Virus record (IMG/VR): IMGVR_UViG_3300013004_000143
Location: 1 to 28,834 of that record
From: a virus
Length of the DNA: 28,834 nt
Direction: 5' to 3' (one strand)
Shown here: piece after piece, positions 2,028-18,308 of the stretch
Layout: each line of letters begins with the position of its first letter
Numbering within the stretch: position 1 is the stretch's first letter
Notes under the pieces: generated by a model
What the model saw: only the letters and a program-made list of their open reading frames with translations
Databases searched by the model: none
Told to the model about the DNA's origin: nothing
Program-made: the position numbers and the translations under genes

Positions 2028-2034
2028 TATTTAT
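2028..2034 (+). promoter_or_regulatory. TATTTAT box, 4 nt before the ATG at 2039
   Basis: TATTTAT followed by TTGT and then ATG. It has the same sequence and the same 4-nt spacing as the boxes before the genes at 8618, 14138 and 6787 (minus). No -35 element or Shine-Dalgarno is evident. It is a candidate phage promoter core that would start transcription at or next to the AUG. Confidence 0.45.
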
Positions 2035-2038
2035 TTGT

Positions 2039-2419
2039 ATGGAATTTTTCATCAAAAGTGGGGCAAACTTACCTTTATTAAAATTATATCTAATAAGAGA
2101 TGGTAGAAGTGATTTTCAATTGGTTGATAACAATTTGAACTCCACTTCTATTTTTTTTTCTACATATGACGTAAATACAGGTTTAATTAAGATTGCGCAA
2201 CAACCTTGTACCATAACAACAGAATTAGATGAAGATGGTATAACACTAAATTATGTTGTGGAATATAAATTTACTACAAGACAAACAAGTCAATCAGGAA
2301 GATACAAGGGTGAGTTTGTAATTCAAGACTCAACAGGTTCTGCAATACTTCCACTACGTCAAGAACTTTTTGTAAACATAACTGAATCAATAACTGAAGT
2401 CGGTTTTTGTTGTAAGTAA
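2039..2419 (+). CDS. small beta-rich structural protein, BppU N-terminal-like
   Basis: This 126-residue protein has no signal peptide or membrane segment. It has alternating beta-strand character: an N-terminal SGANLPLLKLYLIRDGR, a middle part FFSTYDVNTG, then YVVEYKFTTRQTSQSGRYKG and a terminal strand LRQELFVNI. The order (short leader, polarised strand, G/Y-rich strand, then SGRYKGEF) resembles the N-terminal domain of BppU-type baseplate/receptor-binding proteins, in which a 'G.Y..EF' strand is typical. The match is by eye and the family is diverse. The gene begins with ATG directly after a TATTTAT box and sits alone between the glycosyltransferase and the DNA polymerase leader, so it is probably transcribed on its own. 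A structural role is inference; it could be an unrelated beta-sandwich protein. Confidence 0.55.
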   Translation: MEFFIKSGANLPLLKLYLIRDGRSDFQLVDNNLNSTSIFFSTYDVNTGLIKIAQQPCTITTELDEDGITLNYVVEYKFTTRQTSQSGRYKGEFVIQDSTGSAILPLRQELFVNITESITEVGFCCK

Positions 2420-2445
2420 TTTTGACTATCGAACAATATTTTCTA

Positions 2446-2452
2446 TATTTAT
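2446..2452 (+). promoter_or_regulatory. TATTTAT box upstream of the DNA polymerase leader
   Basis: The box lies within TATATTTAT and ends 64 nt before the polymerase ATG. Two bases after it, ATG AAT GAG TAA (2455-2466) forms a three-codon mini-ORF. If the box is a promoter core, the transcript would start near that mini-ORF and carry the hairpin described at 2473-2490. Confidence 0.4.
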
Positions 2453-2460
2453 AAATGAAT

Positions 2461-2505
2461 GAGTAAGGGGAATTTCACAACGTCGTGAAAGCTAATAATC
2501 CACTC
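2461..2505 (+). promoter_or_regulatory. hairpin in the DNA polymerase mRNA leader
   Basis: The core is TTTCAC (2473-2478), loop AACGTC (2479-2484), GTGAAA (2485-2490), a perfect 6-bp stem. GAGT at 2461-2464 can also pair with ACTC at 2502-2505, and the GG/CC next to them could add pairs with a small bulge. The structure ends about a dozen bases before the polymerase start codon. In T4, the polymerase gp43 represses its own translation by binding a leader hairpin; a similar role here is inference. Confidence 0.4.
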
Positions 2506-2516
2506 GAAATTTATAT

Positions 2517-5312
2517 ATGATAGACAGTCAAGTAATTGAATCGTTCCTCCATGGAAACGACCCAGAAGAATTTATTGTTGCACTCGAATATGATTATGCC
2601 TCAGAGTGTATTTACAAAATTAAAGAAATCCCCAACAAAGGTAAAGAAATTAGAAAAGACACATTCATCCCATTTGCATGGGTGGGTGATTTGCGTGGAA
2701 TGAGGTTTTATAATGATTCCAAAGCCGCTCAGAAAGAAGCTATGTCTAAGTATGGTATTACCATCGACAAACTCGAAACAGGAGGAAATGAAAGAATGAA
2801 AAATGGTTTGACCTTTATGGTTAAATCGTTAAAAGGATATAGAGCACTAACAAACTTCTTCCGTGATGGAGGAATTGACCCATATGGTGAAAAGGGTAAA
2901 GAAAAAATACTTATTCTCCCACCCATCGAACAATATTTAATTCAAAAAGAGAAAAGACTTTTCAAAGGTTTTGAAGATTACAACCAAGTGACAAGACTTG
3001 TATTTGACTTGGAAACCACATCTTTGGAACCAAAAGATGGTAGAATTTTCATGATTGGAATTAAAACCAATAAAGGATATCATAGAGTAATTGAGTGTAT
3101 TGATGAATCACAAGAGAGGGGTGCGATTACAGAATTTTTTAAAGTTATAGACGAGATAAAACCAAGTATTATTGGTGGTTATAACTCCGCGAACTTCGAC
3201 TGGCATTGGATTTTCGAAAGATGTAAGATTTTGGGTCTTGACGCAAAAAAGATTTGTAAATCATTAAATCCGGGTAATTCTTTTACGAGAAAAGAAAGTA
3301 TGTTAAAGCTTGCAAATGAGGTTGAGGAATATACACAAACTTCAATTTGGGGGTATAATGTTATTGATATTATCCACGCAGTTCGTAGAGCTCAGGCGAT
3401 AAACTCGAGTATCAAATCCGCAGGACTTAAATACATTACAAAGTATATTAACGCCGAGGCCAAAGACCGTGTTTACATCGAACATACCGATATTGGAAAA
3501 ATGTATACTCAGAAAGAGGAGTATTGGTTGAATGTTCAGAATGGTAATTATAAAAAAGCGGGTGAGTATAAAGATTTGGATATTAAATTTCCTGAGGTTT
3601 ATAAAAAAATTACAGGTGATAAACTCGTTGAGATGTACCTTGATGATGATTTGGATGAGACACTTAAAGTAGACCAAGAGTTCAACCAAGGTTCTTTCTT
3701 ACTTGCTGCTATGATTCCAACAACTTATGAGAGGGTTTCAACTATGGGAACCGCAACTTTATGGAAAATGCTTATGCTTGCTTGGAGTTATAAGAACGGA
3801 CTTGCAATTCCCGAAAAACAAAAGAAAACTGACTTCGTAGGTGGACTTTCAAGATTGTTAAAGGTAGGTTATTCAAAGAATGTTTTGAAACTTGACTTTA
3901 GTTCTCTTTATCCTTCAATACAACTTGTTCACGATGTATTTCCCGAATGTGATATTACAGGTGCGATGAAAGGAATGTTAAAATATTTCCGTGACACCCG
4001 TATCAAATACAAAGAACTTGCAGAAAAGTTTTATGAAACAGACAGAAAGAAATCAGAATCTTATGGTAATAAGCAGTTACCAATTAAGATATTTATAAAT
4101 TCAATGTTTGGTGCGTTATCCGCTCCACAGGTATTTGCTTGGGGTGATATGTATATGGGTGAACAGATTACCTGTACGGGTAGACAATATCTTCGTCAAA
4201 TGATTAAATTTTTCATGTCGAAAGGTTATGTACCACTTGTGATGGATACGGATGGTGTGAACTTCTCAAGTCCTGAAGGTGTGGATGATAGAGTTTATAT
4301 TGGTAGAGGCCTTAATTGGAAAGTTAAAGAAGGTAAGGAATATAGAGGTCCTGAAGCAGATGTCGCGGAGTACAACGACATCTTCATGAGAAAAGAAATG
4401 GCACTCGATACTGATGGTGTTTGGCCTTCTTGTATTAACTTAGCCCGTAAGAACTACGCGGTTATGGATGCCAAAGGTAAAATCAAACTGACAGGAAACA
4501 CAATTAAATCAAAAAAACTCCCACTTTATATTGAGGACTTTTTGGATGTTGCAGTAAAACTTCTTCTTGAAGGTAAAGGAAAAGAATTTGTTGAATACTA
4601 TTACGAATACTTACAAAAGATTTTTGATAAACAAATACCCCTTATGAAAATCGCACAGAGAGCCAAGGTGAAACTAACTATGGAGGATTACAGAAAAAGG
4701 GCGACACAGAAAACAAAAGCGGGTGGTGCTATGTCTATGATGGCACATATGGAACTTGCAATTCAAAATAAACTGAATGTTAATCTTGGTGATGTTATAT
4801 ATTATGTTAATAACGGAACAAAGGCATCAAATGGCGACGTTCAAAAAGTAGGTAAATTAAAGAAAGGATGGAGTAAAGAAGTTCTTGATTATCTTACCGC
4901 AAACAATCAACCAGTACCCGATGATAGTATTGAATCAATAGTAAAAATAAATTGTTACATGTTGGAGCAAAGTGTTATCGAATCAAACCCAACTATGACA
5001 GGTGAATATAATGTTCCAAGAGCGGTGACAACATTTAACAAAAGAATTGAACCACTCCTAATTTGTTTCAATAAAGAAGTTAGAGAAGGATTACTTGTCG
5101 ATGACCCTAAAGATAGAGGTATATTTACAACCGCACAATGCGAGTTAATAAATGGGGTACCTTTCGAAGAGGGAGACCAAGATAAACTAAACGAGGATGT
5201 TTTGGAAATTACACCACAAGAACTTGAATATTGGGGGAAAAGAGGATTACATCCTGACTATATGTATGAATTGGCGGAAGAAGGATGGAATGAAAAGATT
5301 ATGACATTTTAA
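2517..5312 (+). CDS. DNA polymerase, family B with 3'-5' exonuclease (T4 gp43-like)
   Basis: Replicative polymerase of 931 residues, close to T4 gp43 (898). Exonuclease motifs: Exo I VFDLETT with D164/E166; Exo II in GGYNSANFDWHWI with D228; Exo III YNVID with Y280/D284. Polymerase motifs: motif A LDFSSLYPSI with D460; motif B around K524 with NSMFG at 528-532; motif C MDTDGVNF with D577 and D579. ARKNYAVM further on matches the KxY-type region contacting primer-template. All catalytic carboxylates are present, so it should polymerise and proofread. Motif C reads DTDG instead of the more usual DTDS. The ATG at 2517 has no Shine-Dalgarno and follows a structured leader. The 3' end overlaps a convergent minus-strand gene by 14 nt. 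No intein or intron interrupts it. Confidence 0.97.
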   Translation: MIDSQVIESFLHGNDPEEFIVALEYDYASECIYKIKEIPNKGKEIRKDTFIPFAWVGDLRGMRFYNDSKAAQKEAMSKYGITIDKLETGGNERMKNGLTFMVKSLKGYRALTNFFRDGGIDPYGEKGKEKILILPPIEQYLIQKEKRLFKGFEDYNQVTRLVFDLETTSLEPKDGRIFMIGIKTNKGYHRVIECIDESQERGAITEFFKVIDEIKPSIIGGYNSANFDWHWIFERCKILGLDAKKICKSLNPGNSFTRKESMLKLANEVEEYTQTSIWGYNVIDIIHAVRRAQAINSSIKSAGLKYITKYINAEAKDRVYIEHTDIGKMYTQKEEYWLNVQNGNYKKAGEYKDLDIKFPEVYKKITGDKLVEMYLDDDLDETLKVDQEFNQGSFLLAAMIPTTYERVSTMGTATLWKMLMLAWSYKNGLAIPEKQKKTDFVGGLSRLLKVGYSKNVLKLDFSSLYPSIQLVHDVFPECDITGAMKGMLKYFRDTRIKYKELAEKFYETDRKKSESYGNKQLPIKIFINSMFGALSAPQVFAWGDMYMGEQITCTGRQYLRQMIKFFMSKGYVPLVMDTDGVNFSSPEGVDDRVYIGRGLNWKVKEGKEYRGPEADVAEYNDIFMRKEMALDTDGVWPSCINLARKNYAVMDAKGKIKLTGNTIKSKKLPLYIEDFLDVAVKLLLEGKGKEFVEYYYEYLQKIFDKQIPLMKIAQRAKVKLTMEDYRKRATQKTKAGGAMSMMAHMELAIQNKLNVNLGDVIYYVNNGTKASNGDVQKVGKLKKGWSKEVLDYLTANNQPVPDDSIESIVKINCYMLEQSVIESNPTMTGEYNVPRAVTTFNKRIEPLLICFNKEVREGLLVDDPKDRGIFTTAQCELINGVPFEEGDQDKLNEDVLEITPQELEYWGKRGLHPDYMYELAEEGWNEKIMTF

Positions 5313-5634
5313 GTCCGTCGGAACTTAAAATATACCAACTATTTTCAACAAACCTAAACTCAATACACGCACCTTTATCGGCAACAATTTCATCGTACTC
5401 TTCATCAATTTTACCGATAGATGGTTTAATCGTAACGTGAGTCAGACATTTTATAACAGTATGTTCTGTTGTTGTGGAATCCAAAATAAGTGTTGAATCT
5501 TGTACTCCTTTTAGGATGATACAAGATTCTCCCGTTGTTGAATATTCTTTCTCGGTTACTATTGATGTTTCAGAAACATTAACAATAAAACCGTTAATTC
5601 TTTTTTGTGTTGGAATTGACTTTATGATTGGCAT
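5299..5634 (-). CDS. hypothetical beta-rich protein
   Basis: A 111-residue protein I do not recognise. It has no cysteine-based metal site and no membrane segment, and is dominated by short beta-strands rich in T, S, V and I (for example SCIILKGVQDSTLILDSTT). It ends in a W-containing strand (ENSWYILSSDG) of the kind often seen closing small beta-rolls or fibre/decoration modules of phage virions. The ATG is at 5634, 34 nt after the stop of the neck-like gene, with no promoter box between them, so it is probably the last gene of the three-gene minus-strand operon. Its 3' end overlaps the DNA polymerase stop by 14 nt. A structural accessory role is a guess from composition and context. Confidence 0.6.
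   Translation of the reverse strand: MPIIKSIPTQKRINGFIVNVSETSIVTEKEYSTTGESCIILKGVQDSTLILDSTTTEHTVIKCLTHVTIKPSIGKIDEEYDEIVADKGACIEFRFVENSWYILSSDGLKMS
5307..5330. other. inverted repeat at convergent gene ends
   Basis: TTTTAAGT (5307-5314) and ACTTAAAA (5323-5330) form an 8-bp stem around CCGTCGGA, which can itself pair CC with GG. It lies where the polymerase and the minus-strand gene converge and covers the last codons of the minus-strand gene and the polymerase stop. T and A are on the wrong sides for a standard intrinsic terminator, so I list it only as a hairpin that may end or stabilise transcripts from both strands. Confidence 0.35.
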
Positions 5635-5668: not shown

Positions 5669-6787
5669 TTAAATTACGTAAATTTGTCTTGGCATTGCTC
5701 TAAACTTAAGTTGTTTATTCAAGTTCTCCGCAATGATTGCCTCTTTTTCCATTTGTTTTTCAGGTCTCAATCTTTCTAACCTTAATTTTAATTCTTCTTC
5801 TAATTTTGTTTTCTCGTCTTTACCTTCAGTTAATAAACTCTGATAGTCTAGTAAGATTTCTGAATCGGGTGTTTTTAAGTTACCACTATATTTTCCTCTA
5901 ACTCTTCCGAGGGTTTCTTTTACATATGCGGTAAACCATCTTCTGACCCATTGTTTAGCAGGCTCATTCAAGTCTTCCCAACTGATTGCTTCTAAAGGAA
6001 CATCCGATGGTAAACGTATGATATCGGGGTTCAATTTCAAACATTTATCTCTATCTCTACCATCAACATCATAATACCAATACCAAACTTTCGTACCTGA
6101 ATATGAACTATAATTAGCCCAATTAAATCTACCACCAGGTGTATTCATCAAATGTATAAGTTTTTTTCCATCTGGTAACGCGGTTACTCTGTATGTTAGG
6201 TCACCACCAAGAATCCTGTTTAGGAGATTTGCCGATTGAGACCTCACTAAATAATCAAAACCTGACATCATAAAGAAAGAACCTTGGTATCCAAACTGTG
6301 CGTAACCCGCTTGACTTGCACCTAAACCAATACCATCATAACCAAAACCCCATAAACCATATGGACCAAATGCTCCGTACGGTTGATTACTGAACCATAA
6401 TAATTCGTTTATTTCTCTACCGGCAGGTATTTCATATGTTTGTTGACCTCTAACAAGGTCAAAATAATCTTTTTTCAAAGGCCATGGACCAACTTGTTGA
6501 AGACCAACTATTTTTGAGTAAGCGTATTGAAATTGTTTTTCGAAATCGAATGTACGAGTCATTAGAGCGTTTGAAACTGACTTTTGGCTCATATCAAGAT
6601 TTACTAAGTTAGTCCAATTGGTTTCAATTAACCAATCTTGAATGTATTGTTCGTAATCTTGAATTGATAGTTCCATCAAAGAATCCATCATTTCATCTTC
6701 AATTTCAACACTTCTAATTGGTGCTCCAAGTAGGTGTTTGATTCGAGTATATATTCTCGACCTTTCTGGTTCGGCTATTACTGACAT
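5669..6787 (-). CDS. virion structural protein, probable neck (gp13-like) protein
   Basis: This 372-residue protein has an N-terminal helical part (IYTRIKHLLGAP; SIQDYEQYIQDWLIETNW), then a beta-strand region with YEIPAGREINELLWF. An unusually aromatic and glycine-rich loop follows at about residues 136-172 (FGPYGLWGFGYDG and similar), and a charged helical C-terminus with a KTKLEEELKLRLERLRPEKQ-type coil. This helix-then-sandwich plan fits neck or head-tail connector proteins of large myophages. The gene lies one gene away from the divergent gp14-like gene, and in T4 gp13 and gp14 form the neck together. I could not align it with T4 gp13 by eye, so the exact role is inferred. A TATTTAT box (6792-6798) ends 4 nt from its ATG, and a second overlapping copy abuts the ATG. 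Confidence 0.55.
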   Translation of the reverse strand: MSVIAEPERSRIYTRIKHLLGAPIRSVEIEDEMMDSLMELSIQDYEQYIQDWLIETNWTNLVNLDMSQKSVSNALMTRTFDFEKQFQYAYSKIVGLQQVGPWPLKKDYFDLVRGQQTYEIPAGREINELLWFSNQPYGAFGPYGLWGFGYDGIGLGASQAGYAQFGYQGSFFMMSGFDYLVRSQSANLLNRILGGDLTYRVTALPDGKKLIHLMNTPGGRFNWANYSSYSGTKVWYWYYDVDGRDRDKCLKLNPDIIRLPSDVPLEAISWEDLNEPAKQWVRRWFTAYVKETLGRVRGKYSGNLKTPDSEILLDYQSLLTEGKDEKTKLEEELKLRLERLRPEKQMEKEAIIAENLNKQLKFRAMPRQIYVI

Positions 6788-6791
6788 ATAA

Positions 6792-6798
6792 ATAAATA
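6792..6798 (-). promoter_or_regulatory. TATTTAT box, 4 nt before the ATG at 6787 (minus)
   Basis: On the minus strand the sequence is TATTTATTTATATG: two overlapping TATTTAT copies, the outer one 4 nt from the ATG and the inner one directly next to it. Because the helicase gene ends only 30 nt upstream, this box would give the neck-like gene its own start site inside the minus-strand operon. Confidence 0.45.
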
Positions 6799-8572: not shown

Positions 8573-8617
8573 TCAGTAAATAATATAATTATAATAATCT
8601 TTCGTATATTTATCAAT
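8573..8617. promoter_or_regulatory. divergent 45-bp intergenic region with opposed promoter boxes
   Basis: A very A/T-rich spacer between the SNF2 helicase (minus) and the gp14-like gene (plus). On the plus strand TATTTAT at 8607-8613 ends 4 nt before the ATG at 8618. On the minus strand TATTTAC (8576-8582), one mismatch from the box, ends 3 nt before the helicase ATG. No other signal is evident. Confidence 0.45.
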
Positions 8618-9130
8618 ATGCAAAAGTTAGTTCCAATAACAAGGTTAGGTAGATTCTTCGGTGGTGAAGATTACAATTTAGATATTGGTATGGGACAAGA
8701 ATGGTTAGAAGGTGATATGAACTTCACCGTTATACTTTATCGTGTTGATAAATATAAGACAAAAACCGACGATGTATATGGTGAAACTGTTACAGACGGT
8801 GTTAAGTTTTTACCTCCGATTGAGCTAAAAGGTTATGTTCGTATCGCAGCACCAACCGACGCTAAACTTGGTACTTCAAAGTTAGTTCAAGAAGAACCAG
8901 GAAACTTGACCTTTTCTGTTTATCAAAAGTATCTTGATGACTTAGAAATTGATATTCAGTATGGTGATTACTTGGGTTATTATGAAAGTGAAAAAAGGGT
9001 AAGATATTATAATGTGGTTAATGATGGGAGGGTCGTTTCAGATAACAAACATACATATGGTGGTTATAAACCTTTTTATAGAACAATTGTTGCAACTTTT
9101 GTAAATGAAAATGAATTTAACGGAATATGA
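8618..9130 (+). CDS. neck protein, T4 gp14-like
   Basis: This 170-residue protein is shorter than T4 gp14 (256 residues) but has comparable landmarks. A strand VILYRVDKY is followed by DDVYGETV (gp14 has a FGEDL-type element at the same place), then KFLPPIELKGYVR, a beta-rich core including LTFSVYQKYLDDL, and YGDYLGYYESEKRVRYYNVV ahead of a GGYKPFYRT segment that parallels EPYDPFYQ in T4 gp14. In T4, gp14 with gp13 closes the filled head and accepts the tail. The similarity was judged by eye, so it is moderate. The gene begins a three-gene plus-strand unit: its stop overlaps the next start as ATGA (9127-9130). No Shine-Dalgarno is seen; the TATTTAT box sits 4 nt upstream. Confidence 0.65.
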   Translation: MQKLVPITRLGRFFGGEDYNLDIGMGQEWLEGDMNFTVILYRVDKYKTKTDDVYGETVTDGVKFLPPIELKGYVRIAAPTDAKLGTSKLVQEEPGNLTFSVYQKYLDDLEIDIQYGDYLGYYESEKRVRYYNVVNDGRVVSDNKHTYGGYKPFYRTIVATFVNENEFNGI

Positions 9131-9558: not shown

Positions 9559-10598
9559 TGGCATATCCAAAACAAATAAAAAAAACCTTAAAGTTAGTAC
9601 CTGATAAAGAGTTGTCCGACAGGAGAAAAGAGTTATCGGAGTATATTACAAAAAACGGAACTTACTTACCTAAATCTGTTTTACATGCCGATTTGGATAG
9701 AGGTATGTTAGATTTTGTTAAAGAAGACCTAAAAATATTTAGTGAAGGTAATGTAGTTCCCATGGTTGATATACTTTTAACAACGCAAAACTGGACTCAG
9801 TACTTAGAAACTTGGACGTTCTCAGATAGTGATTTCAACCCTATACCCCCTTTTATAACAGTTGTTAGACAACCCGAAGTTAAATACGGAACTAATCCCG
9901 CTCTCCAATATACAATACCAAATAGAAAACAATTTTATTTTGCTGCGGTACCAACATGGAATGGTAATCAGAATGGTATGGATATATACACAATTCCTCA
10001 ACCAGTACCTGTAGATATAAATTATAGTGTGAAGATTGTGTGTTTAAGAATGAGGGAACTTAACCAATTCAATAAAACAGTATTACAAAAGTTTTCTTCA
10101 AGACAGGCATACACTTTTATCAAAGGTCAGTACGTACCGATTATAATGAATAATGTGTCGGACGAATCGGTTATGGAAGTGGATAAAAGAAAATATTATA
10201 TTCAAAACTACGACTTCACAATGCTTGGTTATTTGATTGACGAACAGGAGTTTGAAGTTAAACCGGCAATTTCAAGAGTTCTACAAGTATTCGAAATTGA
10301 CGAGTCAAGACCAAAAAGAAGACCTAAAAGAGAACCTGAAAATCCATCGTCTTTTGATTTTATTATTGAAATACCTGTGGGTACGACGGATTATTCTAAG
10401 ACATTAGAATATAGTGTAAACATGAACATAGTAAAAACAGATAATGTTATTACTTATGATGTATTCATAAATGGTGACTTCTATGGTACTGATGTTTCTA
10501 GTATACCACTAAGTACAAATGATACTTTAGAATTCACTGTTGTAAAATATGATTTTTTGGAGTCATCAACAATTTCTACAAGGTGTGATTTAATTTAA
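9558..10598 (+). CDS. tail completion / sheath stabiliser, T4 gp15-like
   Basis: This 346-residue protein probably caps the tail tube and holds the top of the sheath before head joining. The best support is the middle section (about 150-250). A strand PVDINYSVKIVCLRMRE is followed by a helix and a QYVPIIMNNVSDES loop, then RKYYIQNYDFTMLGYLIDEQ. T4 gp15 has a similarly ordered segment: PIKMIYELSIFTRYEDDM, a helix, IPFKRDIKIVLMS, then RRRIEWSLTFEVNGWMYP. T4 gp15 has 272 residues. Here an additional C-terminal beta domain of roughly 80 residues follows a basic linker RPKRRPKREPENP, and I do not recognise it. The gene follows its neighbour with a TAATG overlap and precedes the sheath, the same order as T4 genes 13-14-15-18. 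Its 3' end overlaps a minus-strand small gene by 9 nt. Confidence 0.6.
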   Translation: MAYPKQIKKTLKLVPDKELSDRRKELSEYITKNGTYLPKSVLHADLDRGMLDFVKEDLKIFSEGNVVPMVDILLTTQNWTQYLETWTFSDSDFNPIPPFITVVRQPEVKYGTNPALQYTIPNRKQFYFAAVPTWNGNQNGMDIYTIPQPVPVDINYSVKIVCLRMRELNQFNKTVLQKFSSRQAYTFIKGQYVPIIMNNVSDESVMEVDKRKYYIQNYDFTMLGYLIDEQEFEVKPAISRVLQVFEIDESRPKRRPKREPENPSSFDFIIEIPVGTTDYSKTLEYSVNMNIVKTDNVITYDVFINGDFYGTDVSSIPLSTNDTLEFTVVKYDFLESSTISTRCDLI

Positions 10599-10760
10599 AT
10601 CTTCTCCGTATATATCTTTTTTTACACTACACTTTTCCATTATTAGTTGTTCTAATAACCTGTGAATTTTAATACCTGTCTTATTACAGTATTTTTTTAA
10701 TAACTCGTGTGACTCCTTTGAAATCTTAATATTCTTTATTTCTTTTTTGTTATCACTCAT
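10590..10760 (-). CDS. small ribbon-helix-helix DNA-binding protein
   Basis: A 56-residue protein encoded opposite to the surrounding tail genes. The core IKNIKISKESHELLKKYC, then NKTGIKIHRLLEQLI, matches the Arc/MetJ/CopG ribbon-helix-helix plan: one polar beta-strand (KNIKIS), helix 1 (KESHELLKKYCNKTG), a G-centred turn and helix 2 (KIHRLLEQLIMEKC). The tail is short and charged. Proteins of this fold dimerise and read DNA with the paired strands, usually as repressors. The ATG at 10760 is preceded on the minus strand by a TATTTATA box 35 nt upstream, so it probably has its own promoter. The stop overlaps the gp15-like 3' end by 9 nt. Its target is unknown; the gp15/sheath promoter region next to it is an obvious candidate. 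The fold call is fairly sure, the role is inference. Confidence 0.7.
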   Translation of the reverse strand: MSDNKKEIKNIKISKESHELLKKYCNKTGIKIHRLLEQLIMEKCSVKKDIYGEDLN

Positions 10761-10794: not shown

Positions 10795-10802
10795 TATAAA
10801 TA
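10795..10802. promoter_or_regulatory. TATAAATA / TATTTATA box between the RHH gene and the sheath gene
   Basis: The plus strand reads TATAAATA, the exact T4 late-promoter core facing the sheath gene; the minus strand reads TATTTATA, the form seen at other genes here, 35 nt upstream of the RHH ATG. The orientation in use cannot be decided from sequence. A weak AGGCA/TGCCT inverted repeat (10771-10791) lies between it and the RHH start and could be an operator. Confidence 0.4.
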
Positions 10803-10839: not shown

Positions 10840-10846
10840 TATTTAT
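10840..10846 (+). promoter_or_regulatory. TATTTAT box upstream of the tail sheath gene
   Basis: TATTTAT in CAATATTTATCTAT, ending 33 nt before the sheath ATG at 10880. The leader between is almost entirely A and T with no Shine-Dalgarno. The tube gene has the same arrangement with a 31-nt leader, so the two highest-copy tail genes share leader architecture. Confidence 0.45.
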
Positions 10847-10879: not shown

Positions 10880-13800
10880 ATGGCAACAACTTCAACAACT
10901 CAAAAAGTTTTCGTTTCACCCGGTGTCTATACATCTGAAACGGATTTAACTTTTGTGGCTCAAAGTGTGGGTGTTACTACATTAGGTCTCGTAGGTGAGA
11001 CTTTACGTGGTCCCGCTTTCGAACCTATTTTTATAACAAATTATGACGAATTTACCGCGATGTTTGGTGGAACAGAACCCACAAAGTTTATCGGTACACA
11101 AATTCCAAAATATGAGGCTGCGTATATTGCAAAGGCTTACTTACAACAATCTAATCAACTTTTTGTTACAAGAGTATTAGGTCTTTCAGGTTACGATGCG
11201 GGACCTTCTTGGAGTATCACACTTGATGCTAATGTGGATGGAACGACTATTGGTTCTGACAACGCGGCCGGTTCTTCTTGGTCTGCAACTTTTACAGGTA
11301 CGACAGGAGGAACATTTGGATTTACAAGTAGTTTACCTTCAATAATTTCGAATAGTTTAAATTCTCAATACAGAAGTGCGAACGGTAATAGTTCTACTTA
11401 TAATTCTGATTTTGCAGCATATATTGGTGAAATTATATTAGATAATACTTTATCTTCAACAACATCAGTAGTTTATGGTGCAATTCCTCTATCAGGTTGG
11501 CAGTCAAGTATTTCAGGTAAAACTGATATACAGAATGTTTTTGGTGTTGATAATGTTAATCTAAACTTGAATGATTTAACCGCAGCGGCAAATGATACTT
11601 GGTACTACGCAACTTTTGACAACACTACGGGTGATGTTTACTCAGGTTATTCTTTCTTCTACGGAATTGATACTTTGACAGATAACGGTGGTGGTGACTA
11701 TAGTGGTCAGATAAGTGGATATACTTATAACTTTACGGGAACTGCATTTTCAGATTATAATGATTTGGTAATTTGTACTTTACGTTCAAGAGGTATATCT
11801 CAATACAGTACTACAGAACACGGACCTAATTACCAAGTTAGTGCGACTAGTTCTGTGAGTTTAAATACTACGGGTTCATACTCAGATGTTGCAACTAATC
11901 CGTTCTCAACATTTGTAATTTCAGGTAATACGATTGATAATTCACAGTTTTCTTTTGAGGTGAGTTTACAATCTTCAGATAGTAAATACATAACCAAGGT
12001 CTTAGGAGCGGACAATTTTGGAAAATCAAGAACTCAAGTTCCTTTGTTTGTTGAAGAGCATTACCCAGGTCTTTTGAATTACCTTTATAATAAAGGTTAT
12101 ATCAAGGGTATAAATAGTAATTTGGTTGCTCTCGGTAGTGCTAGAAGTTTGACTTCTAATTCTATAGCGTGGAACTTGGAACAATATACAAGTCCTGCAA
12201 CACCTTTCTTTGTTTCTGAACTTAGAGGTAATGAGGTGTTCGACCTTTTCCGTTTTATATCAATTTCTGATGGTAGTGCTGCTAATACTCAGGTTAAGGT
12301 ATCGATTGCGGGAATTTCATTTAATAACCAAACATTCGACGTATTGGTAAGAGATTTCTTCGATACTGATACTAACCCTGTAGTTATCGAGAAATTCACA
12401 AATTGTAATATGGATATTAACTCGAATAACTTTGTTGCTAAGAAAATAGGTTCTTCAGATGGTGAATTCCAATTGATTTCTAAATATATAATGGTTGAAA
12501 TGGCAAGTGAATATCCGGCAAGTGCACTTCCTTGTGGTTTCCGTGGTTATACACAAAGGGTTTATTCAAGTACAAACTTTATTTCCCCATTACCTTTTTA
12601 TAAGATAAAATACAATACACCAGGTGAAACAATTTATAATCCGCCTTTTGGTAATACGTCAGGTGGTGATAACATAACTTCTTCTAATGGTGATAATGTA
12701 AGAAGAACTTATTTAGGTTTTTCAAGTAGATTAGGTGTAGATGATTCATTCCTTCAATATAAAGGAAAACAAAATCCTGTAACTAATTTTGGAACTGCGG
12801 TGGAATCTTCAAGTTGGAGTTATCAAACAAGAGGTTTCCATATGGATTCGGGAGCAACTGTAATAACAATTGCAAATTCTTTTGATACTAGTGGTGAAAC
12901 TGCGTTTGATTGTGGTGTAGCACCTTTTAGTTCTGAACCTACCACACAAGAGAGTCCTTATTACTTCACTTACTCAAGAAAATACACGGCATGTTTTGCG
13001 GGTGGTTTCGATGGATGGGATATCTACAGAGAATTTAGAACAAATGAGGATAGATTTAGATTAGGAGGTTCAGGTTACTTGGCGGGTGCATCACCAAGCA
13101 CAAGATACCCAACCGCATCAGGTAATGGTATGTTTAAACAAATCACAGTAAACCAAAACTCTGTTGATTACGCAAACACAGATTATTACGCATATCTTTT
13201 GGGTATTCAAACATTTGCAAATCCTGAAGCAACAAATATTAACATTTTCGCAACAGGTAGCATCAACTTAATTGACTTTAATGGTTTGTCAGAAGAAGCA
13301 ATTAACATGATTCAGTTTGATAGGGCTGATTCAATTTACATCGCTACTTTACCTGACTTCGACATGTTTACTTCTGATTCTACCGATACCGCTAACAGAA
13401 TTTTACCTCAAGAAGCGGTTGATATTTTAGAAGAAACTGGTATCGATTCTAACTATACTGCAACTTATTACCCTTGGGTCTTAACAAGAGATACTGTTAA
13501 TAACACACAAATTTACTTACCGGCAACCGCTGAGGTAGTAAGAAACTTGGCGTTAACTGATAACGTATCGTTCCCTTGGTTTGCATCTGCGGGTTATACA
13601 AGAGGTATTGTAAACTCAGTTAAAGCGAGAATCAAATTAACTCAAGAAGATAGAGATACCCTTTACCAAGGTAGAATTAACCCAATTGCAACTTTCTCTG
13701 ATGTAGGTACAGTAATTTGGGGTAATAAAACTCTTCAGATTGCGGACTCTGCTTTGAATAGATTGAACGTGAGAAGATTGTTGTTACAAGCTCGTAAGTT

Positions 13801-14068
13801 GATTTCGGCTGTTGCTGTTAGATTACTTTTCGAACAAAACGACCAAATCGTTAGACAACAATTCTTGGATAGTGTGAACCCTATTCTTGATGGAATCAGA
13901 AGAGATAGAGGTTTGTACGATTTCCGTGTAACCGTTTCATCTTCTCCTGAAGATTTGGATAGAAACACCCTCACAGGTAAGATTTACCTTAAACCTACAA
14001 GAGCGTTAGAGTTTATTAATATAGAATTCTTAATAACTCCAACGGGTGCTTCCTTTGAGAATATCTAA
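10880..14068 (+). CDS. tail sheath protein, T4 gp18-like, enlarged
   Basis: Contractile sheath subunit that polymerises around the tail tube and shortens on infection. The N-terminus has the family hallmark FVSPGVYTSETDL (11-23), followed by TLGLVGETLRGPAFEP and a YEAAYIAKAYL helix. The C-terminal core (about 855-1062) is also characteristic: YYPWV near 863, LPATAEVVRNLA, FPWFASAGYTRG, RRLLLQARKLISAVAVRLLFE, and a last strand pair ending TGKIYLKPTRALEFINIEFL. At 1062 residues it is far longer than T4 gp18 (659). The extra length is a Ser/Thr/Gly/Asn-rich beta section between about 110 and 800, which in sheath proteins of this family lies on the outer surface. It follows an A/T-rich leader and is followed by a strong terminator, as expected for a very abundant product. 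Confidence 0.93.
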   Translation: MATTSTTQKVFVSPGVYTSETDLTFVAQSVGVTTLGLVGETLRGPAFEPIFITNYDEFTAMFGGTEPTKFIGTQIPKYEAAYIAKAYLQQSNQLFVTRVLGLSGYDAGPSWSITLDANVDGTTIGSDNAAGSSWSATFTGTTGGTFGFTSSLPSIISNSLNSQYRSANGNSSTYNSDFAAYIGEIILDNTLSSTTSVVYGAIPLSGWQSSISGKTDIQNVFGVDNVNLNLNDLTAAANDTWYYATFDNTTGDVYSGYSFFYGIDTLTDNGGGDYSGQISGYTYNFTGTAFSDYNDLVICTLRSRGISQYSTTEHGPNYQVSATSSVSLNTTGSYSDVATNPFSTFVISGNTIDNSQFSFEVSLQSSDSKYITKVLGADNFGKSRTQVPLFVEEHYPGLLNYLYNKGYIKGINSNLVALGSARSLTSNSIAWNLEQYTSPATPFFVSELRGNEVFDLFRFISISDGSAANTQVKVSIAGISFNNQTFDVLVRDFFDTDTNPVVIEKFTNCNMDINSNNFVAKKIGSSDGEFQLISKYIMVEMASEYPASALPCGFRGYTQRVYSSTNFISPLPFYKIKYNTPGETIYNPPFGNTSGGDNITSSNGDNVRRTYLGFSSRLGVDDSFLQYKGKQNPVTNFGTAVESSSWSYQTRGFHMDSGATVITIANSFDTSGETAFDCGVAPFSSEPTTQESPYYFTYSRKYTACFAGGFDGWDIYREFRTNEDRFRLGGSGYLAGASPSTRYPTASGNGMFKQITVNQNSVDYANTDYYAYLLGIQTFANPEATNINIFATGSINLIDFNGLSEEAINMIQFDRADSIYIATLPDFDMFTSDSTDTANRILPQEAVDILEETGIDSNYTATYYPWVLTRDTVNNTQIYLPATAEVVRNLALTDNVSFPWFASAGYTRGIVNSVKARIKLTQEDRDTLYQGRINPIATFSDVGTVIWGNKTLQIADSALNRLNVRRLLLQARKLISAVAVRLLFEQNDQIVRQQFLDSVNPILDGIRRDRGLYDFRVTVSSSPEDLDRNTLTGKIYLKPTRALEFINIEFLITPTGASFENI

Positions 14069-14084: not shown

Positions 14085-14116
14085 AACCCCCAGTCAAATT
14101 AAACTGGGGGTTTTTA
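14085..14116 (+). terminator. intrinsic terminator after the sheath gene
   Basis: AACCCCCAGT (14085-14094) pairs perfectly with ACTGGGGGTT (14103-14112) around the 8-base loop CAAATTAA, followed by a T-run (ttttt at 14111-14115). The 10-bp G/C-rich stem is the clearest terminator in the window and lies 16 nt after the sheath stop. Confidence 0.92.
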
Positions 14117-14126
14117 TTATCTAATA

Positions 14127-14133
14127 TATTTAT
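14127..14133 (+). promoter_or_regulatory. TATTTAT box, 4 nt before the ATG at 14138
   Basis: TATATTTAT followed by TATT and ATG. It begins 14 nt after the sheath terminator stem ends, so the HAD gene appears to have an independent start directly behind the terminator. Confidence 0.45.
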
Positions 14134-14137
14134 TATT

Positions 14138-14965
14138 ATGAAAAAATTATTCGAAGGATTCAAAGATATTGACACTCCCGACATGAAATATTACGCATTC
14201 GATTGGGATGATAATATAGTTTCCATGCCAACAAAAATTATTTTGAAAAATGAAGAAGGTGAAGAAGTGGAAATGGGTACCGAAGATTTCGCCGAGTATA
14301 GAGGTGAGGTAGGAAAAAATCCATTTAAATACAAAGGGGATACTGTTGTGGATTTTGCAAACGACCCATTTAGAAATTTCGGAACAAAAGGAGACAAACA
14401 ATTTCTAATTGATGCTATGAGGGCTAAAGAGGGTCCTGCATTTGAAGATTTTAGGGAGGCGATAAATAACGGTTCCATTTTCTCAATAATTACCGCTCGT
14501 GGTCATTCCCCTAAGACACTTAAAAATGGTGTATTCAATTATATTGCATCAGGATTTGGTGGTATAGATAAAGACCAATTAGTTAAAAACTTAAAAAAAT
14601 ATAGAGACTTTAGTGATATGGAAGACCTTTCTGAAAAGGAACTTATCGAGAGTTATTTAGATTTGTGTAGATTTTACCCTGTTTCTTATAAAAATGAAGT
14701 TGGGGCTAAAAATCCCGAACAAGCTAAGGTGATGGCGATGGATGAATTTGTAGGATATGTGAAAGAATTATCTTCTGAACTCAATAAAAAAGCGTACCTG
14801 AAAAAACAAATCGGAAATAAGTTCACACCAACAAAACCTTCTATAGGATTTTCTGATGATGATTTAAGAAATGTAGATGTAATGAAAAAGCATTTTGAAA
14901 ATAAACCAGATAATATAGTTAAAACATATTCAACATCAGGAGGAGTAAAAATAAGAACTAGTTAA
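14138..14965 (+). CDS. HAD-superfamily hydrolase/phosphatase
   Basis: A 275-residue enzyme of the haloacid-dehalogenase superfamily, which uses an aspartyl-phosphate intermediate to remove phosphate from small molecules, nucleic acids or proteins. Motif I is YAFDWDDN, with D22 as nucleophile and D24 as general acid. Motif II is FSIITARGHS, with T119. A motif III lysine may be K197 in the QAKVMAMDEF helix. Motif IV is probably SIGFSDDDLRN, with D240/D241 binding magnesium. The region between motifs I and II (about 30-110) holds a large charged cap-like insert, and the basic C-terminal tail after 250 is probably flexible. It lies between sheath and tube, flanked by the sheath terminator and its own TATTTAT box, so it need not be a structural protein. 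No substrate can be read from the sequence. Confidence 0.82.
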   Translation: MKKLFEGFKDIDTPDMKYYAFDWDDNIVSMPTKIILKNEEGEEVEMGTEDFAEYRGEVGKNPFKYKGDTVVDFANDPFRNFGTKGDKQFLIDAMRAKEGPAFEDFREAINNGSIFSIITARGHSPKTLKNGVFNYIASGFGGIDKDQLVKNLKKYRDFSDMEDLSEKELIESYLDLCRFYPVSYKNEVGAKNPEQAKVMAMDEFVGYVKELSSELNKKAYLKKQIGNKFTPTKPSIGFSDDDLRNVDVMKKHFENKPDNIVKTYSTSGGVKIRTS

Positions 14966-15093
14966 TAATATTTTTAATAAACTAAAACCGGATTATATAT
15001 AAGAGATAAAAAATAAAAATTGAAAGTAAATAGAAAAATTTTATTACAATCAGTATATTTATAACTATAAACAAAAACATTAAATAGAATACT
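14966..15093 (+). promoter_or_regulatory. leader and promoter region of the tail tube gene
   Basis: 128 nt of very A/T-rich DNA with no reading frame of note. TATTTAT at 15056-15062, inside CAGTATATTTATAAC, ends 31 nt before the tube ATG. The remaining leader has no Shine-Dalgarno. I see no terminator for the HAD gene here. Confidence 0.45.
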
Positions 15094-15582
15094 ATGGCGG
15101 ATTTATTAATGAAAATGCCGATTCCTTACGAACCGAAAAGACAGAATCGATTTATTTTAAGGTTCCCATCAACTTTGGGAATAAATGAATGGTTTGTGGA
15201 ATCAACGGCACGTCCACATATCACGATAAATGCAACTGAAATTCCTTTTTTAAATACTTCAACTTATGTTGCAGGTAGATTTAACTGGCAAACTATTCCT
15301 GTTGTATTTAGAGACCCAATTGGTCCATCAGCGGCACAGGCACTTATGGAGTGGGTACGTTTACACGCAGAATCTGTTACAGGTCGTATGGGATACGCTG
15401 CGGGGTATAAAAAAGATATTGACTTGGAGATGTTAGACCCAACCGGTGTTGTTGTTGAAAAATGGATTATGTACGGAACATTCTTAACAGATGTGAACTT
15501 CAATAGTTTGGCATACAATCAAGATGGTCTTGCAACAATTAACGCGACTTTAAGAATGGATAGATGTGTATTGGTTTACTAA
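15094..15582 (+). CDS. tail tube protein, T4 gp19-like
   Basis: Subunit of the inner tail tube through which DNA passes. The length, 162 residues, is almost exactly that of T4 gp19 (163). The family pattern is clear: RQNRFILRFPS at the start, GINEWFVESTARPHITIN, then NTSTYVAGRFNWQTIPVVFRDPIGP, a helix AAQALMEWVRLHAES, DIDLEMLDPTGVVVEKWIMYG, and a terminal strand ATINATLRMDRCVL. The ATG at 15094 follows a 31-nt A/T-rich leader after a TATTTAT box. The gene is monocistronic in appearance, since a strong hairpin with a T-run follows. A gp19-like tube next to a gp18-like sheath and a tape measure fixes the tail as contractile. Confidence 0.95.
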   Translation: MADLLMKMPIPYEPKRQNRFILRFPSTLGINEWFVESTARPHITINATEIPFLNTSTYVAGRFNWQTIPVVFRDPIGPSAAQALMEWVRLHAESVTGRMGYAAGYKKDIDLEMLDPTGVVVEKWIMYGTFLTDVNFNSLAYNQDGLATINATLRMDRCVLVY

Positions 15583-15622
15583 TATCACAATACTATTGAT
15601 AATAAAATAATTAAATTTATAT

Positions 15623-15665
15623 TTAACCGTAGAGAAACTATAAACTTTCTACGGTTAATTTTTTT
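15623..15665 (+). terminator. intrinsic terminator after the tube gene, touching the next start codon
   Basis: TTAACCGTAGA (15623-15633) pairs perfectly with TCTACGGTTAA (15648-15658), an 11-bp stem extendable by a G-U and an A-U pair, followed directly by seven Ts (15659-15665). The next ATG is at 15668, so only two bases separate the T-run from a start codon. It should terminate most tube transcripts and pass a fraction into the gp26-like gene. Confidence 0.88.
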
Positions 15666-15667
15666 AT

Positions 15668-16411: not shown

Positions 16412-16550
16412 TTATAGGAAATCACAATTAGACGAATTTTACTATTTGAATACTTTGTTAAAAATTTCTTATAGTGATTTTGAGAGAATGCCGGTTTTTG
16501 TTAGGAAATACCTTTTAGATAAATGGTTGGAAGATAATAGAGAGGACTGA
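16371..16550 (+). CDS. small overlapping protein, gp51/tail-chaperone-extension-like
   Basis: A 59-residue protein in the +1 (equally -2) frame relative to the gp26-like gene, overlapping its last 41 nt. Starting at ATG 16371 it reads MSVLGSTFFALSSDYRKSQL and continues DEFYYLNTLLKISYSDFERM then PVFVRKYLLDKWLEDNRED. The pattern of aromatic helix, 'SYSD/SY..', 'MPV..R.wll' and acidic tail is one I associate with small proteins encoded after gp26-like genes in T4-like phages and with chaperone extensions. The overlap carries a six-T run (16391-16396) where ribosomes could shift by +1 or -2 and make a gp26-like fusion. No Shine-Dalgarno has good spacing to the ATG: AGGAG at 16350-16354 is 16 nt away. 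Independent start versus frameshift is undecided; that the frame is coding seems likely. Confidence 0.6.
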   Translation: MSVLGSTFFALSSDYRKSQLDEFYYLNTLLKISYSDFERMPVFVRKYLLDKWLEDNRED

Positions 16551-16563
16551 TTTTTCAGTCCTT
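16543..16563 (+). terminator. hairpin (weak terminator or processing site) before the tape measure gene
   Basis: AGGACTG (16543-16549), loop ATTTTT, CAGTCCT (16556-16562): a perfect 7-bp stem covering the stop codon of the small frame. Only TTT then ACTATTT follows, so the T-run is short and termination is probably partial. A TATTTAT box starts 5 nt further on. Confidence 0.5.
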
Positions 16564-16566
16564 TAC

Positions 16567-16573
16567 TATTTAT
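16567..16573 (+). promoter_or_regulatory. TATTTAT box upstream of the tape measure gene
   Basis: TATTTAT ends 17 nt before the ATG at 16591, with AATAAATAATATTGATT between. It directly follows the 16543-16562 hairpin, repeating the hairpin-then-box order seen after the sheath gene. Confidence 0.4.
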
Positions 16574-16590
16574 AATAAATAATATTGATT

Positions 16591-18285
16591 ATGCAGGACG
16601 CTAATAGTGGTAATTTAGATAATCTTGAAGGTTTTAAAGAACTTATCACACCAAATTTTTTAGACGCTATTGAAAGGTTGACCTCTGCCGCGACAGATTT
16701 AAATACGGTATTTGGTCAAAATAGACAAAGAATATCTGAGATGCAAAGGGCTATTTCAGAATCAGAACCTGTTGTTCTTAAATTAGGGGGTACTATAGAT
16801 GATGCTGGTAAGGCACTTGCAGAAATTTCAGAAGGAACTAGAAGAAATGTTTTAGCAACTTCCGAAGACGTATCAAAACTATTTGCGGCTTCCAAAATTT
16901 TGAATACAGAAATAAGTACTTTGGTAGAAAATTTTAATAATGTCGGTGTACAATTTAGTGCGGTGGGGGACCAACTGGAAAAAAGCATTAGTTATATTCA
17001 AAGTATTGGTATGAATACAAGTCAAATTATGAGAACGGTAACTAATAATATGGAAAAACTTAACGAATTCAACTTTGCAGGTGGTGTTGAAGGACTTACT
17101 AAGATGGCAGCACAGTCTACGTTTTTTAGATTCAATATGAGTGATACATTTAATGTGATGGAAAAAGCGTTGAGTCCCGAAGGAGCAATAGAACTTTCGT
17201 CAGCATTCCAAAGAATGGGTATTGCTGCAGGAGATTTGACTGACCCATTCCAACTCATGTATAAATCACTTAATGACCCCGAGGGATTACAAAAAAGTTT
17301 GAGTCAGATGACAAAACAATTCAGTTATTTTGATGAGAAAACAAAAACTTTCAAAATTAGTCCTGAAGGTATGTTACAAATGAGGGAGTTGTCAAAACAA
17401 ACTGGTATCAGTTATGAATCATTATCAAAATCCTCATTAGCGGCAGCAAATTTGGATGGTGTTATGAGACAGATGAAACCTGGATTCAAATTTGAGTCCG
17501 AGGAAGACAAACAACTTTTAGCTAATGTCGCGAGGATGACTAAGGAGGGTAAATACCAAATTGAAATGAAGGGGGGTCAAAAAATTGATATTGACCAAGC
17601 ATCCCCTGAGTTACTAAAACAATTTTTAGATGAACAAAAATCTGCTCCGAAAACATTAGAAGAAATGCAAAGAAATTCATTAGGTATTACTGAAACAATT
17701 GCCGGAGATGTGAGTGCTATTAGAGCTAAAATTGAAGGGACCGTAACCGCACCCTCATTAACAGAGTTTAATGAAATGGTTAGGGATTTTATAACTTCTT
17801 CAACCGATTTGGTTGAAAAAGAAGTGCCAAAAGGTGGTGCAAGAGATGAATTGGAAAATGTGATTCAACAATCAAAAAAGATTTATGATAGTTTGGCGAA
17901 AGGAGATACCGCCGGTGCCGCAAAAACTATTCAGGAACTTGAAGGGAGATTCGAAAAATTATCAGAACAAGGAGGAGAAAAAATGGCTAAATTAGTTGAA
18001 AAATTAAAAGATAATTTTGGTGAAGTAAAATCGAAGTACGATATCTTCAGAGAGAAAAGTGGTACTTCAACCATGAAGTCCAAACCAAAGGAAACTACTA
18101 AGGTTAGTTTAGAACAAACCGTAAATTCGAATCTGAACGTTAAAGTCGACGCGGGAAATGCAAATACAAAACAAATAGAACAATTTTTGAACACACGCGA
18201 ATTTAAAGAGGCGGTATTTAATGTAATAAAAAATATGGACTCGAACTCACTAGCAACACTTAGAAAGGCGTTAAAGTTGCAATAA
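16591..18285 (+). CDS. tape measure / tail length determinator, T4 gp29-like
   Basis: A 564-residue, almost entirely alpha-helical, Ala/Ser/Lys/Glu-rich protein, close to the length of T4 gp29 (590), which sets tail length. Long heptad-like stretches run through residues about 10-160 (for example FLDAIERLTSAATDLNTVFG; EDVSKLFAASKILNTEISTL) and again near the C-terminus (DELENVIQQSKKIYDSLAKG; GEKMAKLVEKLKDNFGEVKS). A more compact middle region includes STFFRFNMSDTFNVMEKAL and a Met-rich helix. Its place after the tube and gp26-like genes and before the baseplate genes fits. I chose ATG 16591 over the TTG at 16585 because TTG is rare here. No membrane segment is obvious. If the usual relation of roughly 0.15 nm per residue holds, the tail would be slightly shorter than that of T4. 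Confidence 0.78.
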   Translation: MQDANSGNLDNLEGFKELITPNFLDAIERLTSAATDLNTVFGQNRQRISEMQRAISESEPVVLKLGGTIDDAGKALAEISEGTRRNVLATSEDVSKLFAASKILNTEISTLVENFNNVGVQFSAVGDQLEKSISYIQSIGMNTSQIMRTVTNNMEKLNEFNFAGGVEGLTKMAAQSTFFRFNMSDTFNVMEKALSPEGAIELSSAFQRMGIAAGDLTDPFQLMYKSLNDPEGLQKSLSQMTKQFSYFDEKTKTFKISPEGMLQMRELSKQTGISYESLSKSSLAAANLDGVMRQMKPGFKFESEEDKQLLANVARMTKEGKYQIEMKGGQKIDIDQASPELLKQFLDEQKSAPKTLEEMQRNSLGITETIAGDVSAIRAKIEGTVTAPSLTEFNEMVRDFITSSTDLVEKEVPKGGARDELENVIQQSKKIYDSLAKGDTAGAAKTIQELEGRFEKLSEQGGEKMAKLVEKLKDNFGEVKSKYDIFREKSGTSTMKSKPKETTKVSLEQTVNSNLNVKVDAGNANTKQIEQFLNTREFKEAVFNVIKNMDSNSLATLRKALKLQ

Positions 18286-18301
18286 AAATTTAGTTTCATT
18301 C

Positions 18302-18308
18302 TATTTAT
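18302..18308 (+). promoter_or_regulatory. TATTTAT box upstream of the first giant baseplate gene
   Basis: TATTTAT ends 14 nt before the ATG at 18323, in an A/T-rich 37-bp spacer after the tape measure stop. There is no terminator between the two genes. Confidence 0.4.

Follow-up and report, generated by a model that had tools for sequence, protein, structure and literature searches.

A family of freshwater phages carries a short conserved element, TATTTAT, upstream of many genes. We examined it starting from the virus record IMGVR_UViG_3300013004_000143. This 28,834-base record, analysed whole, is referred to here as the window. We conclude that TATTTAT (the box) is a real and strongly conserved phage promoter-like element. 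It probably serves as a promoter for a phage sigma factor, working much as T4 late promoters do but with a different box, and often giving rise to leaderless mRNA. Box recognition by the sigma factor, the positions of start sites, late timing and leaderless translation are what we infer from the comparisons below. The group is very common in IMG/VR. A scan with the tail tube protein found at least 600 related stretches, of which 599 of 600 were confirmed and 80 kept. A scan with the sigma factor likewise gave at least 600 matches.

In the window, TATTTAT occurs 21 times against 18.05 expected, so the raw count is not unusual. Yet intergenic DNA, at 721 bases just 2.5% of the window, holds 12 of these copies. 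Of the 13 genes with at least 7 nucleotides (nt) of upstream intergenic DNA, 10 have a sense box. These segments hold 11 boxes, four of them with a gap of 4 nt, where the gap is the number of nt between the end of the box and the start codon. Dinucleotide shuffles of the same segments gave a mean of 1.92 boxes. None of 5000 reached 11 boxes, 10 genes or four boxes at gap 4. All ten exact copies listed by an earlier sequence-only reading of this DNA are present at the positions it gave. Its four boxes at gap 4 are likewise confirmed, with the amendment that the gene starting at 6787 on the minus strand has two overlapping copies, at gaps 4 and 0. The sites are as follows.

2028-2034, plus strand: box 4 nt before the ATG of gene 2039-2419, predicted leaderless; box in 5/5 orthologues (four at gap 4, one at gap 6).
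2446-2452, plus strand: box 64 nt before the ATG of the family-B DNA polymerase gene 2517-5312; box in 3/5 orthologues (gaps 59, 64 and 67).
6792-6798, minus strand: box 4 nt before the ATG of the head-tail adaptor-like gene 5669-6787 (PHROG head-tail adaptor Ad2); box in 15/15 orthologues (gap 4 in eight, gap 5 in six, gap 17 in one).
6788-6794, minus strand: overlapping box copy ending at the ATG of the same adaptor-like gene.
8607-8613, plus strand: box 4 nt before the ATG of gene 8618-9130; box in 24/26 orthologues, with the nearest gap varying from 4 to 45.
10796-10802, minus strand: box 35 nt before the ATG of the Arc-like repressor gene 10590-10760; box in 12/33 orthologues (gap 34-37).
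10840-10846, plus strand: box 33 nt before the ATG of the tail sheath gene 10880-14068; box in 36/36 orthologues (gap 30-37).
14127-14133, plus strand: box 4 nt before the ATG of gene 14138-14965, directly after a terminator-like hairpin and T-run.
15056-15062, plus strand: box 31 nt before the ATG of the tail tube gene 15094-15582; box in 79/79 orthologues (78 at gap 31-45, one at 75).
16567-16573, plus strand: box 17 nt before the ATG of gene 16591-18285; box in 57/57 orthologues with a called ATG, or 56/58 by a fixed 100-nt window.
16575-16581, minus strand: extra exact copy, intergenic and antisense to both adjoining genes.
18302-18308, plus strand: box 14 nt before the ATG of gene 18323-23353; box in 62/62 orthologues (gap 13-17).

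Orthologue counts exclude L019, L022, L044, L060 and L063, which come from the same contigs as, or nearly duplicate, sequences already included. Orthologues were dropped if no in-frame ATG lay near the aligned start (31 for gene 16371, for example) or if fewer than 60 nt lay upstream. For the Arc-like repressor, TATTTGT was found 14 times at gap 34-36; these cases may overlap with the 12 that have the exact box.

Genes without a box are also informative. The sequence-only reading held that the box is absent before genes that overlap or closely follow another, and most boxless genes of the window lack it throughout. Orthologues with a box number 0/7 for gene 9127, 0/6 for 5299, 0/45 for 16371, 1/26 for 9558, 4/33 for 23353 and 3/32 for 23666. 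Gene 15668 does not belong to this set because it has 85 nt of upstream intergenic DNA. An exact box precedes 31/78 of its orthologues, mostly 54-67 nt upstream. Two further candidate promoters were rejected. TATTTAA before 15668 sits in a terminator-like hairpin, as seen in the relatives printed for comparison. The one-mismatch copy proposed before gene 8572 (minus strand) is not conserved, with an exact box in 1/23 orthologues, at gap 20. Separately, at 14090-14137 (plus strand) and in relatives, a terminator-like hairpin and T-run adjoin the box, such that terminator, promoter and start codon lie within about 50 nt. A hairpin plus T-run stands beside 48/324 boxes in six records.

The sequence-only reading had suggested comparing box density within and between genes. 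Related records reach 317-321 kb, and two of these (G013, 317 kb; G012, 321 kb) show that the densities are unequal. In G012, sense copies number 111 across the 19,475 nt of upstream intergenic DNA and 31 across 291,714 nt read in coding sense, a density about 54-fold higher ahead of genes than within them. The corresponding counts in G013 are 112 in 18,909 nt and 43 in 291,990 nt. Upstream copies are strand-biased, with sense and antisense counts of 111 and 28 (G012) or 112 and 49 (G013). Among genes with at least 12 nt upstream, 111 (G012) and 110 (G013) carry the box; first-order Markov sequences gave means of 10.4 and 14.8, with maxima of 23 and 27. A search for enriched words that was not seeded with the motif returned TATTTAT as the top heptamer by sense over antisense count (six records, including G004, a near-duplicate of part of G003). 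Overall, 327 of 653 genes with at least 12 nt upstream carry the box, or about half of genes with room for a promoter.

Conservation between relatives is equally marked. No other heptamer is as widespread as TATTTAT in the DNA preceding tube, sheath, 18323 and 16591 orthologues. The box is present in all upstream windows of tube (78), sheath (36) and 18323 (62). Removal of near-identical upstream DNA left 43, 20 and 34 sequences, respectively. Where the exact box is missing, one-letter variants are mostly not sense-enriched. The exceptions are TATTTAA (22 sense, 7 antisense), TATTTGT (13 and 6) and CATTTAT (5 and 0).

We pooled 344 boxes from seven records to examine spacing (the window, G001, G002, G003, G008, G012 and G013; G004 was excluded as a near-duplicate). 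Gaps of 4, 5 and 6 nt account for 54, 51 and 17 boxes, 122 in total. The flanking gaps are nearly empty, with four boxes at gap 0-3 and seven at gap 7-9. A second mode lies at 12-18 (109 boxes) and a third, smaller, at 28-38 (34 boxes). Start codons in the 4-6 nt class are ATG in 121 cases and GTG in one. This class makes up between 0.11 and 0.47 of box genes, depending on the record. At the 53 sites with a gap of 9-24, the proportion of A is 0.74, 0.92 and 0.81 at 5, 6 and 7 nt past the box. These are the positions at which the A of ATG falls when the gap is 4-6. All 20 non-redundant sheath leaders have A at both 6 and 7 nt past the box. If transcription always began 5-7 nt past the box, gaps 0-3 would have to be nearly absent, as observed. 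Hence, given the gap pattern, the downstream A and the box-to-start spacing of T4 and Flavobacterium psychrophilum promoters, about one third of boxes are most naturally read as directing a start on the AUG or no more than 2 nt from it. The 4-6 nt class most likely yields leaderless mRNA, with start sites deduced from spacing. The sequence-only reading placed the start of its 4-nt class at or next to the AUG, and the fixed gaps and downstream A indirectly support this.

The same reading proposed two spacing classes, with box ends 4 nt or 31-35 nt from the ATG. Such classes are real and are kept gene by gene. However, there are more than two, because the boxes of genes 2517, 16591 and 18323 lie at 64, 17 and 14 nt. 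Across five genomes, gaps are 29-31 for portal (identified by Pfam Portal_T4), 12-14 for prohead protease, 33-37 for sheath, 33-36 for tube and 4-5 for adaptor. The reading further suggested that the classes may divide low-output leaderless genes from high-output ones. Long leaders occur in sheath and tube genes, but also in the portal gene, and portal is a low-copy protein in T4. In the same five genomes, no box of their own was found before capsid, terminase and PhoH genes; the major capsid gene is boxless in its own 30-38 nt of upstream DNA.

The sequence-only reading pointed to a gp55-like late sigma factor as something to seek elsewhere in the genome, and one was found in the genomes of larger relatives. 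The T4 late sigma family, phrog_234, matched one open reading frame (ORF) of about 250 amino acids in each of G001, G002, G003 and G005, at E values from 6e-5 to 1.4e-3. The remaining eight of the 12 records, 29 to 71 kb long, gave no match. A profile of the new family found matches in G012-G016 and in two further phages, Mel-JY01 and LR756508 (E about 1e-11 to 1e-12). In the T4 genome it matched once, within gene 55 (E 1.3e-3). When five T4 proteins were searched with a profile built from four divergent members, gp55 scored 17 bits. In the reverse direction, phmmer with T4 gp55, gp45, gp43, gp44 and rpbA matched one protein, the G002 sigma factor, by gp55 (E 2e-4). The best PDB sequence match of the sigma factor is also T4 gp55 (7d7c_F), at an E value of only 0.061. 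Predicted sigma region 2 aligned with 7d7c_F over 105 residues (Z 8.0, 3.9 Å) and with sigma-E over 94 residues (Z 8.7, 2.9 Å); sigma-E scores as high as gp55, and a Z near 8 can arise by chance for helical folds.

Beyond region 2, the sigma factor has a conserved C-terminal stretch of about 90 residues that gp55 lacks, and the alignment shows no T4-like tail. Among T4-family phages, the similar C-termini are not conserved throughout, according to PMC2988020. The C-terminal domain folded alone with a predicted local distance difference test score (pLDDT) of 79.3. Against the PDB it had no clear match: sigma region 4 entries scored Z 4.2-4.6, tied with unrelated proteins, and Foldseek returned nothing at E 0.001. 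The one match to its sequence profile was a mitochondrial ribosomal protein (E 0.13). Other readers of the box were considered. A phage multi-subunit RNA polymerase was rejected, since no beta subunit was found in five records (the control matched 14/14). A search for a T7-type polymerase gave no match in either these or the control genomes, and so is uninformative. Bacterial genomes scanned with the sigma factor contained one relative, on a contig of a metagenome-assembled genome with no clue to a host. The gp55-like sigma factor is thus the likeliest reader of the box, which we infer it recognises.

Box and sigma factor also occur together in phages of other recorded hosts. Cultured Flavobacterium phage immuto (host Flavobacterium sp. 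LMO8) has 42 sense and 13 antisense copies of TATTTAT and a sigma ORF (E 3e-15). The sigma protein is gp118, encoded at 78174-78872 and annotated as a hypothetical protein. Its boxes precede portal, sheath, tube and terminase genes. Phage Mel-JY01, with Microcystis elabens as its recorded host, has the sigma factor and the box, with ATATTTAT in 19 sense and 2 antisense copies. Here 18 of the 19 boxes lie at least 13 nt away from the start codon, which is preceded by a Shine-Dalgarno-like word in 13 cases. Such words precede 66/211 Mel-JY01 genes against 7 in a control window. Hence, the box is not tied to one host type. A second intergenic word, ATATTTAG, is enriched in immuto (L266-L269; 19 sense, 1 antisense; ATTTAGGT, 15 and 0) and is perhaps another promoter class. 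No sense TAnnTTTG was found in immuto. In Rhodothermus phage RM378 (L270-L272), the ORF at 17032-17826, annotated as hypothetical, matches the sigma family profile (E 3e-14), in addition to an annotated sigma factor at 128329-128928.

Several observations weigh against the proposal that a phage sigma factor reads the box as a late promoter. The window record has no sigma gene, which was assigned from relatives. At E<=1, phrog_234 also matched 7/14 control genomes; hence this search alone is unspecific. The sigma model has moderate confidence (pLDDT 65.7; predicted template modelling score 0.40). Foldseek gave it no match at E<=0.001, and gp55 was absent from the 50 matches listed, most of them sigma factors. 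Similarity to gp55 is therefore weak, but it comes from several directions. Since LR756508 and RM378 carry sigma relatives without TATTTAT enrichment, box and sigma factor are not strictly coupled. In LR756508 there are 5 sense and 6 antisense copies (200 of 484 kb); in RM378 counts are 3 and 2, with TATTTAA at 35 and 18. Only 4/42 immuto boxes lie at gap 4-5. We conclude that box and sigma factor go together in part of the family, and that the leaderless peak is a clade feature. Within the clade, the box of gene 14138 is kept in just 8/67 orthologues. Gene starts came from our own simple gene caller. The gp45-type clamp (phrog_223) had no match in six records, although the control matched in just 1/14 and a diverged clamp would escape. 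Genes for replication and nucleotide functions (DNA polymerase and ribonucleotide reductase) likewise follow a box, one gene with a host-type promoter matches head maturation protease families, and TTTG is weakly over-represented 14-17 nt ahead of the box (33 cases at these four positions among 334 sites).

The host is probably a Bacteroidota bacterium. Shine-Dalgarno words are no more frequent than in the control in five records, save five-base words in G012 (11 against 8). A phage-carried outer membrane barrel with a carboxypeptidase-regulatory domain, which we take to be SusC-like, is encoded under a box at G012:126060-129335 (plus strand), and also indicates such a host. We considered that the box might be a variant of the host primary promoter, TAtaTTTA read by host sigma-A in place of the -7 element TAnnTTTG, with no need for a phage factor. 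The sequence-only reading had noted this resemblance, which is evident in TATATTTAT. In F. psychrophilum, TAnnTTTG lies at -12 to -5 (PMC9723704), the same spacing to the start as in our 4-nt class. Strict host-type sites in the phage genomes also peak at gap 4 (9/56). However, TTTG, the -33 element of host promoters, occurs 22-24 nt upstream of 55/124 TAnnTTTG sites but only 2/334 TATTTAT sites in the same genomes. Most one-letter box variants are not enriched where the exact box is missing, and the box persists in Mel-JY01 with its recorded Microcystis host. Among the 653 genes with at least 12 nt upstream, 54 have a strict host-type promoter, 327 have the box and only 10 have both. The resemblance does not make the box simply a Bacteroidota -7 element, and we consider a host-variant origin improbable.

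No conserved -35 element accompanies the box; information per column upstream of 119 boxes is at most 0.53 bits, with the maximum in an A/T tract. Ten host-type genes searched against PHROGs included primase, protease (head maturation protease families), peptidase, HNH endonuclease and a weak DNA-binding protein match. Ten box genes scanned included portal, ribonucleotide reductase (box 53 nt upstream) and a weak integrase match. The two promoter classes differ in sequence, but a clean functional split between early and late is not supported by these gene lists.

Less likely still is a strict T4 late promoter on the opposite strand, using TATAAATA, gp55, gp33 and the gp45 clamp. The sequence-only reading had drawn attention to ATAAATA, the reverse complement of the box, and virion genes do lie downstream, with a gp55-like sigma factor in relatives. 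T4 late promoters read TATAAATA in the direction of transcription, as 8 bp from -13 to -6 (PMC1524935), while here it is TATTTAT that is read in that direction. The boxes are sense-oriented at fixed distances from the gene, with the strand bias given above. In G008, where all 28 called genes are on the plus strand, intergenic TATAAATA copies number 0 on plus and 6 on minus. The same pipeline applied to T4 found TATAAATA 18 times in sense and 7 in antisense, with all gaps at least 13 nt. The lack of a T4 C-terminal tail also argues against this identity, and no gp45 match was found in the six records searched. Equally unlikely is a non-transcriptional role for the box, as an AT-rich translation-initiation or mRNA-processing signal or as noise of base composition at gene starts: upstream DNA is AT-rich and adenine upstream of the start, above all at -3, aids translation in Flavobacterium johnsoniae (PMC6847099), but distinct spacing classes reaching 45 nt and more from the start, the strand bias and shuffle controls, the rank of the box among heptamers upstream of orthologues, and its absence from several genes closely following another all speak for transcription.

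A phage-sigma promoter would work as follows. TATTTAT would be the -10-type element of a phage-specific, probably late, promoter. The phage sigma factor, whose region 2 resembles that of gp55, probably associates with the host core RNA polymerase and recognises the box with no help from a -35/-33 element. The first transcribed base would be an A some 5-7 nt past the box. With a gap of 4-6 nt, the mRNA would start from the AUG or within 2 nt of it and be leaderless. With a gap of 12-25 or 28-45 nt, an A-rich leader without a Shine-Dalgarno sequence would result. Many genes retain their spacing class across relatives, and host-type promoters (TTTG, TAnnTTTG) in the same genomes serve a smaller gene set. 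A fuller version is tentative, and we hold it to be possible rather than probable. In it, TATTTAT would be read by a single-polypeptide late sigma factor that combines gp55-like region 2 with a C-terminal domain, which may stand in for gp33 or region 4 at the beta flap. The spacing from box to AUG would be a heritable, gene-specific code (leaderless, short A-rich or long leader) that sets late-gene translation, gene by gene, in a host lacking Shine-Dalgarno sequences. In a phage whose host does use such sequences, the same box would nearly always lie far enough away to accommodate one.

These results amount to a promoter code that can be read in large freshwater phages of a very common group, and predict hundreds of start sites almost to the base. 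They suggest that leaderless mRNA is a principal mode of expression in these phages, whose hosts seldom use it. They also bear on the question, raised in a review of T4 late transcription (PMC2988020), of why no fused late sigma factor exists. Phage immuto is cultured and holds both box and sigma factor, so the proposed recognition is directly testable. In the literature covered, which excluded most subscription journals and preprints, no paper was found joining TATTTAT with a phage late promoter.

Other features of the window and its relatives were recorded. The window encodes T4-like tail and neck genes. PHROGs matches are to head-tail adaptor, tail tube and baseplate hub, and the tail sheath was identified by tblastn. 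Its other genes include a family-B-type DNA polymerase, a helicase and a weak glucosyltransferase match. Downstream of the box, the DNA polymerase leader contains one further feature.

2460-2506, plus strand: conserved RNA structure in the DNA polymerase gene leader, from six sequences.

It is a nested hairpin, TTCAC/GTGAA inside GAGT/ACTC. Five of its 13 predicted pairs have changes on both sides with pairing kept. The structure is reminiscent of the self-repressing operator of T4/RB69 gene 43. In G012, between about 120 and 245 kb, many box genes start with short N-terminal motifs with an acidic end (LTESDLxRLVxKVxxEQ, MKYIITESQ, MNLNENISRVKELMG). These resemble T4 capsid-targeting sequences cut by the prohead protease, and the products are possibly packaged internal proteins. 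A loose and unspecific pattern for such N-termini matched 34/50 gap-4-6 genes against 70/244 boxless genes in G012, and 18/35 against 77/257 in G013.

Judged from published descriptions, the present phages are probably moraphages or their kin. According to PMC12619734, moraphages are mainly freshwater, 200-307 kb, with predicted Bacteroidota hosts. They have a T4-like tail, portal, protease and a conserved sigma factor, and no RNA polymerase genes were found in them. The one promoter passage found in that paper concerns a different matter. Jumbo phages without RNA polymerase often encode sigma homologues, likely steering host polymerase to phage promoters (PMC13282480). With T4 late promoters the present system shares a -10-type box that is short and tightly conserved, the lack of a conserved -35 element, AT-rich downstream DNA and a place before virion genes (PMC2988020, PMC1524935). 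The virion morphogenesis genes here are portal, prohead protease, sheath, tube and adaptor, alongside some non-virion genes. Sigma region 2 similarity is a further shared trait. In contrast, the box is TATTTAT instead of TATAAATA, many copies lie 4-6 nt from the ATG while none of the 18 in T4 is closer than 13 nt, and the sigma factor has an extra conserved C-terminal domain and no T4-like clamp-binding tail. Bacteroidota sigma-A promoters likewise end about 4-5 nt before the start and presumably use the same core polymerase. However, TATTTAT has a different core and lacks TTTG at 22-24 nt, and both types occur in the same phage genomes. In bacteria, leaderless genes are taken to be marked by a -10-like box some 10-12 nt ahead of the start codon (PMC3160421). 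TA-led leaderless bacterial genes share this arrangement, about 10 nt before the start, with 122/344 boxes here. In F. johnsoniae, leaders exceed 10 nt in 87% of predicted transcripts (PMC6847099). Leaderless mRNAs are 5.5% of the total in F. psychrophilum (PMC9723704), and about 3.7% of 5' untranslated regions are shorter than 10 nt in Bacteroides thetaiotaomicron (PMC7366714). Against these host figures, the box described here is phage-specific and 122 of its 344 copies are of the leaderless type.

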